Of a stretch of 64,000 nt of DNA, positions 60,649-64,000 are shown one piece after another. Under the pieces are notes generated by a model, which worked only from the letters and a program-made list of their open reading frames with translations, did not search any database and was not told where the DNA came from. A program made the translations under genes and the position numbers. Origin of the DNA: an uncultured Lachnospiraceae bacterium (GTDB lineage Bacteria; Bacillota; Clostridia; Lachnospirales; Lachnospiraceae); the NCBI GenBank assembly GCA_947164605.1, contig CAMUXE010000005.1:62001-126000 (forward strand), written 5' to 3'. Numbering within the stretch: the stretch's first letter is position 1; the number at the start of each line of letters is the position of its first letter.

Positions 60649-61317
60649 TTAATTCTTCTTCTCCTCAATAAGCTTGATAATTGCTCCAACTACGGCATCG
60701 ATATCCATGTCAGAAGTGTCAAGCAAAACTGCATCGTCAGCCTGTTTAAGTGGAGATATTTCTCTGTGCATATCTGCATAATCTCTGTCAGCTATATCCT
60801 TCTTGATAAGATCCAAATCGCAATCCTGACCCTTTTCCTTAAGCTCGTCAAATCTTCTCTTAGCTCTTGTGTCCACACTTGCTGTCAGATAGATTTTCAA
60901 GAATGCATCAGGTAAAACAACAGTGCCTATATCTCTGCCATCCATAATCACATCACAAGACTTGGCAATTTTTCTCTGGAGTTCAACTAACTTGCTGCGA
61001 ACAGCCCCATACTTTGATGTCTTTGATGCCATCTTACCAGTCTGCTCTAATCTCAACTTATCTGTCACGTCAGCTGAGTTCAAAAAAACATGCTGAAGGC
61101 CATCTATATGCTTGAGCTCAATATCAACCTCATCTACATGTTCATTAATCTCATTTTCATCATCTGGGTTTACACCCTTTTCGTCAAAGTATACTGCCAT
61201 AGCCCTATACATGGCGCCTGTATCAATATAAGTATAGCCAAGCTGCTTAGATACAATTTTAGCTATTGTGCTCTTTCCTGCTCCAGCAGGTCCATCGATT
61301 GCTATTGAATAACTCAT
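60649..61317 (-). CDS. cmk: Cytidylate kinase
   Basis: Phosphorylates CMP and dCMP. 222 residues. P-loop IDGPAGAGKSTIAKIVSKQL, YIDTGAMYRAM, MDGRDIGTVVLPDAFLKIYL and ASVDTRAKRRFDELKEKGQ. Part of the BaiN-like-cmk-ispH-rpsA run; cmk-ispH-rpsA is a standing clostridial cluster. Start ATG 61317. Confidence 0.97.
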   Translation of the reverse strand: MSYSIAIDGPAGAGKSTIAKIVSKQLGYTYIDTGAMYRAMAVYFDEKGVNPDDENEINEHVDEVDIELKHIDGLQHVFLNSADVTDKLRLEQTGKMASKTSKYGAVRSKLVELQRKIAKSCDVIMDGRDIGTVVLPDAFLKIYLTASVDTRAKRRFDELKEKGQDCDLDLIKKDIADRDYADMHREISPLKQADDAVLLDTSDMDIDAVVGAIIKLIEEKKN

Positions 61318-61339
61318 TTTAATCCTCCATTGCTATGTC

Positions 61340-62608
61340 TTATTCCAAATAACTTCCAGCTGCATAGCCAGTTGACCATGCCACCTGAAGGTTAAATCCA
61401 CCTGTAAACGCATCAATATCAAGCATCTCACCGGCAAAGTACAAGCCCTTTATCTTCTTGGCTCTCATTGTCTTAGGATCTATTTCCTTGACGCTGATAC
61501 CACCCTGAGTGATAATTGCCTCCCTAAAATCATGAAGCTTTACACAGGTATACTGCATATCCTTGATAAGGCTCACCAACCTAAGTCTCTCCTCATGGGT
61601 TATCAAATTTACCTTCTTGTCTGGTGCAATACCAGAAAGTTTGATAACTATAGGAATCATTTTCCTTGGAAGAAGAGAATCAATCGAATTTCTGAAATCC
61701 TTATTCATCTCATCCTTAAAATCACGCAGTATTCTCTGATCCAACTGATCATAAGAAAGTGAAGGCTTCATATCCAGGTGAAGTATAAGTTCCTTCTCCT
61801 CTAGTTTCTTACCAATCTTGCTTGAGCATGACAAGATAAGGGGACCACTCATGCCATCGGCGGTATATACAAGCTCACCGAATCCAGAGTAGAGTTCCTT
61901 TTTGCCATCCTTGACGCTGACTCCAACATTCTTAAGGCTAAGTCCCTCTAGTTCACGGATATAATCCTCCTTAAAGCTTATAGGAACCAGAGCTGGTCTT
62001 GTTGCAGTCACCTTAAGGCCGAGTTTTTCAGCTATTTGAAGTCCCAGTCCATCTGAGCCAGTAACTTGGTATGACTTGCCACCGCAGGCAAAAATTACAA
62101 CGTCTGCCTCTAGTCTTTTTTCTTTCTTGCTTGAATCAAGCACCTTGATTGCCACAAGCCTTGCCTGAACTTTTTTATCTTCCTCGCAAGAATAGCTCTC
62201 AGTCTCAACTCCTGTAACCAGCGTATTGTACTCAAGCTTTACCCCGCGGTCTCTCATCATCTTATCAAGAGTTCTGATAACATCAGAAGAATGGTCAGAG
62301 ACAGGGAAAACTCTGTTTCCCCTCTCAACCTTAATTTCAAGTCCTTCATCCTCAAACATTTTCATAAGATCGTGGTTATTGAATGCAGAGAAGGCACTCA
62401 TCATAAACTTGGGATTACTGACAATATTGGCCAGAAGCTGATCTGAATCACAGGCATTAGTCAAGTTGCATCTGCCTTTTCCTGTTATATAAATCTTCTT
62501 ACCAGATTTCTCATTTCTCTCAAGGACTGTAACATTATGTCCCATTTCAGCCGCTCTGATAGCAGCCATCATTCCGGCTGCACCGGCACCAACTACATAA
62601 ACTTTCAT
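61340..62608 (-). CDS. HI0933/BaiN-like flavoprotein, second copy
   Basis: 422 residues. FAD site VYVVGAGAAGMMAAIRAAEM at the N-terminus, ITGKGRCNLTNACDSD, and C-terminal GEMLDIDAFTGGFNLQVAWS. Same family as 19128-20399 but clearly divergent. This copy, next to cmk, is in the location usual for clostridia and is probably the ancestral one. Substrate unknown. Confidence 0.88.
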   Translation of the reverse strand: MKVYVVGAGAAGMMAAIRAAEMGHNVTVLERNEKSGKKIYITGKGRCNLTNACDSDQLLANIVSNPKFMMSAFSAFNNHDLMKMFEDEGLEIKVERGNRVFPVSDHSSDVIRTLDKMMRDRGVKLEYNTLVTGVETESYSCEEDKKVQARLVAIKVLDSSKKEKRLEADVVIFACGGKSYQVTGSDGLGLQIAEKLGLKVTATRPALVPISFKEDYIRELEGLSLKNVGVSVKDGKKELYSGFGELVYTADGMSGPLILSCSSKIGKKLEEKELILHLDMKPSLSYDQLDQRILRDFKDEMNKDFRNSIDSLLPRKMIPIVIKLSGIAPDKKVNLITHEERLRLVSLIKDMQYTCVKLHDFREAIITQGGISVKEIDPKTMRAKKIKGLYFAGEMLDIDAFTGGFNLQVAWSTGYAAGSYLE

Positions 62609-62644: not shown

Positions 62645-63262
62645 TTACTCGTTATCGATAAAGAGTTCCCTGAAGTAAGGAAGTTCCTCAGCCCAAGCAG
62701 TAAACTCTCTCCACTCATCAAGCTTGTGATTCTTTCTTGAATAGTACATATTAGCCAAGTTCTCATAGTTAAATGTGCATGTTCTCATCTGATTATAAGA
62801 CTCTGGAAGCAACTGTATAAGATCGTACCAATACTTTTTATCCTTAGTCTCAACAAACTTGAGTCTAATCTGCTCAAGATTCTCAATTACGTACTCCATA
62901 ACCTTCTTAGCCTCATCAGTCATGTGATCTGTGCTAAAATCAGACATTTCAAAAGGCTTTGAGTGAATTTTGTGCATAGTACTTGTTGAATTTGCCACTG
63001 TGCCAACCTTATAGGTATCATACTCCTTCCACCAATAAATAGGTGCAGTGATATCTACAGACACAAAAATCATTCTGACAAATTTTCTGTGATCATGACC
63101 AGCTTTAGTAAGTCTCTTAGCTAGATCAAGGTCGTTTGGACCAAAGTGGAACTGGTCATCCTCATAGTATGAGTCCATTCTTGCCCAACTGTTAAGAGGA
63201 TTTCTAGCTCCTCTCATAGCATTTTCAAAATTCATAACGCTCAAACGTTCAAATTTAATCAT
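62645..63262 (-). CDS. ThyX-fold protein with altered active-site signature
   Basis: About 205 residues from ATG 63262 (GGAG six bases upstream). Reads along its whole length like flavin-dependent thymidylate synthase ThyX: LAKRLTKAGHDHRKFVRMIF followed by VSVDITAPIYWWKEY matches the ThyX strand before the signature, and LLPESYNQMRTCTFNYENLA then RKNHKLDEWREF matches its C-terminal R/H region. Where ThyX has RHRxxSxNExSxRY, this protein has DTYKVGTVANSTSTMHK (82-98). The two Arg and the His of RHR are replaced. Thymidylate synthase activity is therefore doubtful. Assignment is from remembered family patterns; a profile search would settle it. Confidence 0.7.
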   Translation of the reverse strand: MIKFERLSVMNFENAMRGARNPLNSWARMDSYYEDDQFHFGPNDLDLAKRLTKAGHDHRKFVRMIFVSVDITAPIYWWKEYDTYKVGTVANSTSTMHKIHSKPFEMSDFSTDHMTDEAKKVMEYVIENLEQIRLKFVETKDKKYWYDLIQLLPESYNQMRTCTFNYENLANMYYSRKNHKLDEWREFTAWAEELPYFRELFIDNE

Positions 63263-63282
63263 ATTAATCTCCATTAAAAATA

Positions 63283-64000
63283 TTACAGGCTGAGTCTCTT
63301 TTCATGGCTTGATCTTGAGAAAATCATAAACATTGGGAATATCTCAAGTCTACCAGTCAACATTGTCAAAGAAAGTAAAAGCTGAACCCAGTCATCATAT
63401 ACAGAAAAATTAGACATAGGTCCAATAGCTGAAAATCCTGGTCCAATGTTATTAAAGCAGGAAAGAACTGCTGTCAAATTGGTAGTAAAGTCCTGATTAT
63501 TCAATGAAATCAGAAGAGTCACAATACATATAATCAGGAAATATGTACACACATACACTCTTGTAGCTATCAAGGTCTCTTTCTCAACCTTCTTGCCGTC
63601 AAGTCTAACTATAGAGATATGTCTAGGATCCATAATATGCTTAAGTTCTGTAAAAAAGCTCTTTACAACCATAACCACACGGCAGACCTTCATACCACCA
63701 CCAGTTGAGCCTGAGCAGGCGCCAACTATCATAAGAAGTATCAGGACATGTTTGGAGTATTCAGGCCACTGGTTAAAATCTACAGTTGCAAATCCAGTTG
63801 TGGTGATAATACTCGCAACTTGGAAGAAAGAATACCTAAAAGCCTGACCAGCACTTGGAAGGGTATGCATAATATTGGCCATGATAGTGATTGTCGAGAA
63901 GGCTATAAAACCAAAATACCACCATACTTCTTCAATTCTGAATGCATCCTTGACCTTCTTAATCAGAATAAGGAAATAGACATTAAAATTAACTCCGAAA
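63283..64000 (-). CDS. trkH: TrkH/KtrB-type potassium uptake protein, 5' part outside window
   Basis: Channel subunit of a Trk/Ktr K+ uptake system. The frame is open to the right edge (reads GVNFNVYFLILI before the first internal Met), so the 5' part lies outside. Seen: FFQVASIITTTGFATVDFNQ (selectivity-filter region), GACSGSTGGGMKVCRV, AVLSCFNNIGPGFSAIGPMS and the end MLTGRLEIFPMFMIFSRS. The cytosolic TrkA partner is not in the window. The ThyX-like gene begins 20 bases after its stop. Confidence 0.95.
   Translation of the reverse strand, partial: FGVNFNVYFLILIKKVKDAFRIEEVWWYFGFIAFSTITIMANIMHTLPSAGQAFRYSFFQVASIITTTGFATVDFNQWPEYSKHVLILLMIVGACSGSTGGGMKVCRVVMVVKSFFTELKHIMDPRHISIVRLDGKKVEKETLIATRVYVCTYFLIICIVTLLISLNNQDFTTNLTAVLSCFNNIGPGFSAIGPMSNFSVYDDWVQLLLSLTMLTGRLEIFPMFMIFSRSSHEKRLSL

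Follow-up and report, generated by a model that had tools for sequence, protein, structure and literature searches.

Thymidylate synthesis in microbes is taken to be covered by two enzymes, ThyA and ThyX, which occur in about 65% and about 35% of microbial genomes, respectively (PMC9931769). Near the end of the 64,000-nucleotide stretch analyzed here (the window), an uncultured Lachnospiraceae bacterium carries a gene whose product had been predicted, from the DNA letters, to possess the fold of ThyX over its whole chain but to have lost the ThyX signature RHRxxSxNExSxRY. The original prediction took this as a hint of a new substrate or of a regulatory role, perhaps tied to the neighboring trkH and BaiN-like genes. 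The question raised by this locus is which task a ThyX-like protein with a rewired motif performs in its host.

The gene and its surroundings

Retranslation of the minus strand from 63262 to 62645 yielded an open reading frame of 205 amino acids, and the coordinates and residues quoted in the original prediction proved to be correct. The translation shows DTYKVGTVANSTSTMHK at residues 82-98 and also contains the C-terminal arrangement R176-x-x-H179-x-x-x-E183-W184 described for this protein. The gene (62645..63262, minus strand) encodes the 205-residue ThyX-fold protein that belongs to phrog_6721 and is proposed below to be a thymidylate synthase. A likely ribosome binding site, GGAGATTA, was read in the sequence at 63265..63272 (minus strand) upstream of the ATG at 63262, its GGAG lying just 5' of this codon. 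Another in-frame ATG at 63274, which overlaps with the ribosome binding site, is a less likely start.

The gene is flanked on one side by trkH (63283-63999), which is truncated by the window edge, and on the other by a HI0933/BaiN-like gene (61340-62608) situated 36 bases downstream. Beyond the latter, cmk, ispH and an S1-like rpsA were identified by their translations. The region comprising 60649-62608 and onwards, with the HI0933/BaiN-like, cmk, ispH and S1-like genes, is probably an ordinary clostridial cluster for which a functional link need not be assumed. The neighborhood differs among carriers, for which reason a regulatory role in conjunction with trkH and the BaiN-like gene was discarded: the genes adjoining the ThyX-fold gene in the window are not common to most other carriers, and among 116 neighboring genes inspected there, HI0933_like was matched only four times.

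Fold and relationship to ThyX

Profile searches with the window protein revealed no match to PF02511, even at E ≤ 10, nor to any other Pfam family. Sequence searches of the PDB gave no match with the protein and no significant match with the profile of its family. Among 131 aligned relatives, ten matched PF02511 at E ≤ 1 (best value 6.7e-5), and Thy1 was the Pfam family matched by more of these relatives than any other. TIGR02170 was matched by one relative (E 0.058), the window protein being below its curated cut-off. An hhalign comparison between the family profile and that of 47 ThyX sequences, with a low diversity (Neff 2.4), did not reach significance, and hmmsearch with a ThyX profile gave a best E value of 0.01. 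Judged by these searches, the similarity to ThyX is at the detection limit.

The structural comparison gave a clear result. A monomer modeled by AlphaFold2 on the basis of the 131 aligned sequences reached a mean pLDDT of 94.6 and a pTM of 0.88. At E ≤ 0.001, Foldseek retrieved 147 chains of the PDB; all of the 50 listed were ThyX, with E values down to 7e-8. In VIA-align searches of the PDB, the best match was the Helicobacter pylori ThyX 3n3y (Z 14.7 over 186 residues, rmsd 2.9, 18% identity). The top 47 entries, with Z values from 14.7 to 12.2, were all ThyX or PolB, followed by an unrelated entry at Z 4.2, and no entry other than ThyX or PolB reached Z 5, although further relatives may exist. 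The protein of Fusobacterium phage Fnu1, which stands for the most divergent branch, also yielded a ThyX-like model, at lower confidence (pLDDT 76, Z 12.6). In the predicted structure, the ThyX fold was confirmed over the whole chain, as had been suggested. A missing PF02511 match or a fold unlike ThyX had been named as arguments against this assignment; the profile match was indeed absent for the window protein, but the fold, which is the decisive half, is ThyX-like. Because the direct sequence evidence is weak, homology to ThyX is based on the fold together with the weak Pfam matches of some members.

The protein shares its whole-chain fold with ThyX (PF02511, TIGR02170, EC 2.1.1.148), even though only 17-18% of the residues are identical in structural alignments. 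The same fold is present in PolB, the UMP/dUMP methylase of Streptomyces cacaoi (4p5a and 4p5b; Z 14.0 for 4p5b), to which the identity in structural alignment is 13%. PolB is an enzyme of an antibiotic pathway. By contrast, ThyA (PF00303, EC 2.1.1.45) has an unrelated fold, and PF00303 was not matched by the window protein. Since it failed two of the tests that currently define ThyX, the curated profile and the signature, the protein was placed outside ThyX proper, in a new branch of the superfamily. NCBIfam and Pfam contain no named family for it. In PHROGs v4 it matched phrog_6721, a group of unknown function, with an E value of 7.8e-67 (residues 1-202 against 7-216 of 218). The same group takes four distant phage relatives, whereas a bacterial ThyX was assigned to other PHROGs, e.g., phrog_85. 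In annotated phage records, the relatives are called hypothetical protein. Searches of open-access papers turned up neither a report on the present family nor one on a third thymidylate synthase.

Signature residues

The loss of RHRxxSxNExSxRY was evident from the translation. In place of this motif, the window protein contains YKVGTVANSTSTMH, and the codons of residues 84-98 (YKVGTVANSTSTMHK), which make up the conserved signature found here instead, extend from 62969 to 63013 on the minus strand (counted from the ATG at 63262). All 131 aligned relatives share Y84, S92, S94, T95, M96 and H97, and T83 and K85 are near-invariant. The variant motif is therefore conserved in the homologues and constitutes a strict signature particular to the family, roughly [TR]Y[KH]x(6)SxSxMH. 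While ThyX proteins of the same bacterial family possess HEIVRHRIASYSQESTRYCNY, the window protein's family shows WWKEYDTYKVGTVANSTSTMHKI; the corresponding segment of G313 and of the most distant phages resembles RYHxxDxxSSQSxMH. A chance resemblance or a decaying gene was rejected, since the alignment of 131 sequences comprises 35 invariant columns. Within the otherwise invariant signature, residue 93 (codon 62982-62984), just before S94, is variable, being mostly Thr in chromosomal and Cys in phage copies.

The RHR of ThyX binds FAD (PMC6514825). In the window protein's family, both FAD-gripping elements of ThyX are replaced, the RHRxxSxNExSxRY motif by [TR]Y[KH]...SxSxMH and the HESxxEH region by (S/H)DHRKFxR. 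Other residues may have been retained. In the ThyX protein of Thermotoga maritima, S88, R90 and Y91 are important for activity, and R174 activates dUMP (PMC8316439). If a one-residue insertion is assumed, S94 would correspond to S88, M96 to R90 and H97 to Y91. At the C-terminus, residues 176-184 (RKNHKLDEW) are encoded at 62711..62737 on the minus strand, again computed from the start at 63262, and R176, H179, K180, L181, E183 and W184 are invariant. R176 is the putative equivalent of R174, because the register of this region is fixed by LP....T.N....R.

Distribution of the gene in relation to thyA, thyX and thymidine kinase

The host genome is 99.97% complete and contains DHFR. Profile searches of this genome revealed no match to PF02511 (ThyX), PF00303 (ThyA) or the PF00265 thymidine kinase, so the canonical thyA or thyX gene that had been considered elsewhere in the genome was not found. 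In a sample of 150 genomes of the same bacterial family, one per genus, ThyA was present in 106 and ThyX in 24, and 21 carry an orthologue of the window protein with an identity of at least about 60%. Neither ThyA nor ThyX was found in 20 of the 21 carriers, compared to nine of the 129 non-carriers, 120 of which possess at least one of them. The resulting Fisher p value of 5e-17, like the comparisons below, treats the genera as independent and thus overstates the significance of the exclusion: as the chromosomal copies form one clade that spread, the number of independent events is lower than the counts suggest. After removal of genomes less than 90% complete, the relation of genomes with and without ThyA/ThyX was 1 to 19 among the carriers and 106 to 3 among the non-carriers (p 1e-18).

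Fifty further carriers were inspected, including Lachnospira multipara, Butyribacter, Lacrimispora, Anaeromassilibacillus, Tyzzerella and two Spirochaetota. ThyA was detected in one and ThyX in two of them, while 47 have neither; at the rate of the family, ThyA would be expected in 71% and not in 1/50. Thymidine kinase was found in 15 of the 50 genomes, and in 33 all three enzymes, ThyA, ThyX and the PF00265 thymidine kinase, were missing. Thymidine kinases belonging to families other than PF00265 may have escaped this count. Exceptions to the mutual exclusion are the three further carriers with ThyA or ThyX and the genome G244.

Three genomes at least 90% complete (G313, G325 and G340) seemingly lack ThyA, ThyX and an intact orthologue. 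G313 (97% complete) has neither ThyA nor ThyX and contains two near-identical, divergent phage-type copies (L187, L193); this branch may also function as a host thymidylate synthase. In G325 (99% complete), likewise devoid of ThyA and ThyX, a thymidine kinase is present alongside a fragment of the window protein's family. In G340 (94% complete), neither ThyA nor ThyX nor an intact member of the family was found. The two Spirochaetota MAGs (L151, L158), which lack ThyA and ThyX, carry chromosomal copies with 70% identity, and either horizontal transfer from Clostridia or contamination of the MAGs would account for them.

Linkage to folA

In 12 of the 21 carriers, folA is located within 1.6 kb of the orthologue, while about 0.002 such cases per genome would be expected by chance. 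Of 110 loci, 26 have folA downstream of the gene in the same orientation. Among the 116 neighboring genes of other carriers mentioned above, DHFR_1 was the commonest family (13 genes), and thymidylate kinase occurred three times. In genomes carrying thyA, e.g., G311 and G343, this gene is likewise situated beside folA, and the usual place of thyA is often taken by the orthologue. In G244, thyA, folA, the ThyX-fold gene and a second folA are arranged side by side (L178, G244:C1:2001254-2003925), which looks like a transition state of thyA replacement in an assembly that is 8% contaminated. Within the same bacterial family, adjacency to folA was more frequent for the ThyX-fold gene (12/19) than for ThyX (2/13, counted by eye; p 0.012). 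On the other hand, the linkage may simply have been inherited from the place of thyA.

Proposed function and mechanism

The need of the host genome, the exclusion of ThyA and ThyX, the linkage to folA and the nucleotide-metabolism setting of the gene on phages indicate, with a probability that we put at about 87%, that the window protein is the host's putative thymidylate synthase. It would belong to a divergent branch of the ThyX superfamily, of phage origin, whose members make dTMP from dUMP and have taken the place of thyA or thyX in some Clostridia and a few Spirochaetota, filling the same metabolic gap as the two known enzymes. What held of the original interpretation is the retained fold with a rewired but conserved motif. 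A new substrate or a regulatory role found no support: the exclusion of ThyA/ThyX, the linkage to folA and the missing thymidine kinase of the host together point to the old dTMP job performed by a changed active site.

Among the alternatives, an enzyme of the same fold yielding another product is improbable. It might hydroxymethylate or otherwise modify dUMP or another nucleotide, first for modified phage DNA, while the bacteria obtain dTMP from elsewhere. The rewired signature and the presence of most relatives on phages would suit such an activity, and PolB, which acts on both UMP and dUMP (4p5a/4p5b), shows that the ThyX fold is adaptable to another nucleotide. However, this explanation accounts neither for the near mutual exclusion with ThyA and ThyX and the place beside folA nor for the 33 of 50 carriers devoid of ThyA, ThyX and thymidine kinase. 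It is likewise hard to regard the carriers as scavengers of thymidine or dTMP that have lost thyA and are merely marked by the protein, which would then regulate folate or pyrimidine metabolism or act in it as an accessory factor. A fold alone proves no function, and thymidine kinase does occur in 15 of the 50 further carriers, but the PF00265 enzyme was found neither in the host genome nor in 33 of these 50, the 35 invariant polar and catalytic-type residues fit an enzyme, and the gene occupies the thyA slot and is widespread on phages.

As a thymidylate synthase, the protein would probably form a ThyX-like homotetramer with active sites at the subunit interfaces. Going by the alignment, dUMP would be held and activated by the retained residues R176 (R174 in T. 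maritima) and S94 (S88), and the invariant H97 might stand in place of the ThyX acid Y91. With a one-carbon unit presumably supplied by methylene-tetrahydrofolate, the reaction would most likely be a reductive methylation of dUMP in a ThyX-type active site. As to the reductant, it is somewhat more probable that the enzyme keeps flavin. Because the FAD-binding residues are altered and the gene is paired with folA, a reaction as in ThyA, in which tetrahydrofolate gives the hydride and dihydrofolate is released, was also considered and is tentatively put second; flavin nevertheless stays ahead, since the linkage to folA may be a legacy of the thyA place. Some other chemistry takes up the small remainder. 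In its boldest form, which we consider doubtful, the proposal would mean a third kind of thymidylate synthase: a ThyX fold without flavin chemistry, with methylene-tetrahydrofolate as both carbon donor and reductant, invented by phages and adopted by bacteria for an essential step of DNA synthesis. Release of dihydrofolate would in that case explain the pairing with folA.

If the window protein indeed synthesizes thymidylate, a third group of enzymes would fill the dTMP gap in many gut Lachnospiraceae, Oscillospirales relatives and some Spirochaetota, and auxotrophy predictions and metabolic models would have to be corrected. Phrog_6721 would gain a function, and the locus would be a clear case of an essential host gene beside folA that was replaced by a phage enzyme. 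The response of carrier species to antifolates and fluoropyrimidines would then depend on the new enzyme.

Phage relatives and origin

In a tree of 166 sequences, 81 chromosomal copies formed one clade (SH-aLRT 99) amid viral sequences. The tree is a quick one with many weak inner branches, and the clade also holds one very long phage branch that is probably misplaced. Lachnospiraceae, Oscillospirales-type families and Spirochaetota are intermixed in it. A clade of mixed hosts among viral sequences fits one or a few captures from phages and a subsequent passage from one bacterium to another. The phage-type copies L189 and L190, which also come from bacterial genomes, stand apart from this clade. 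Such prophage-type copies and the abundance of the family in phages might suggest a phage gene without host function, kept in prophage remnants, but this has hardly any likelihood, as the chromosomal copies are a highly conserved clade of their own, located beside folA or in housekeeping surroundings.

On viral contigs, the neighbors of the gene include MazG, dATP/dGTP diphosphohydrolase, NrdD and dUTPase. In Desulfovibrio phage ProddE, a copy of the family is located near an NTP pyrophosphohydrolase and nrdD. The copy of Enterocloster phage PMBT24 has a deoxynucleoside monophosphate kinase in its vicinity. Large phages of C. difficile with genomes of about 130 kb (phiCDIF1296T, L363:3878-4543, and its relatives L366-L384) harbor a divergent family member whose signature reads RYHHNDYVSSQSKMH and which is situated beside replication genes.
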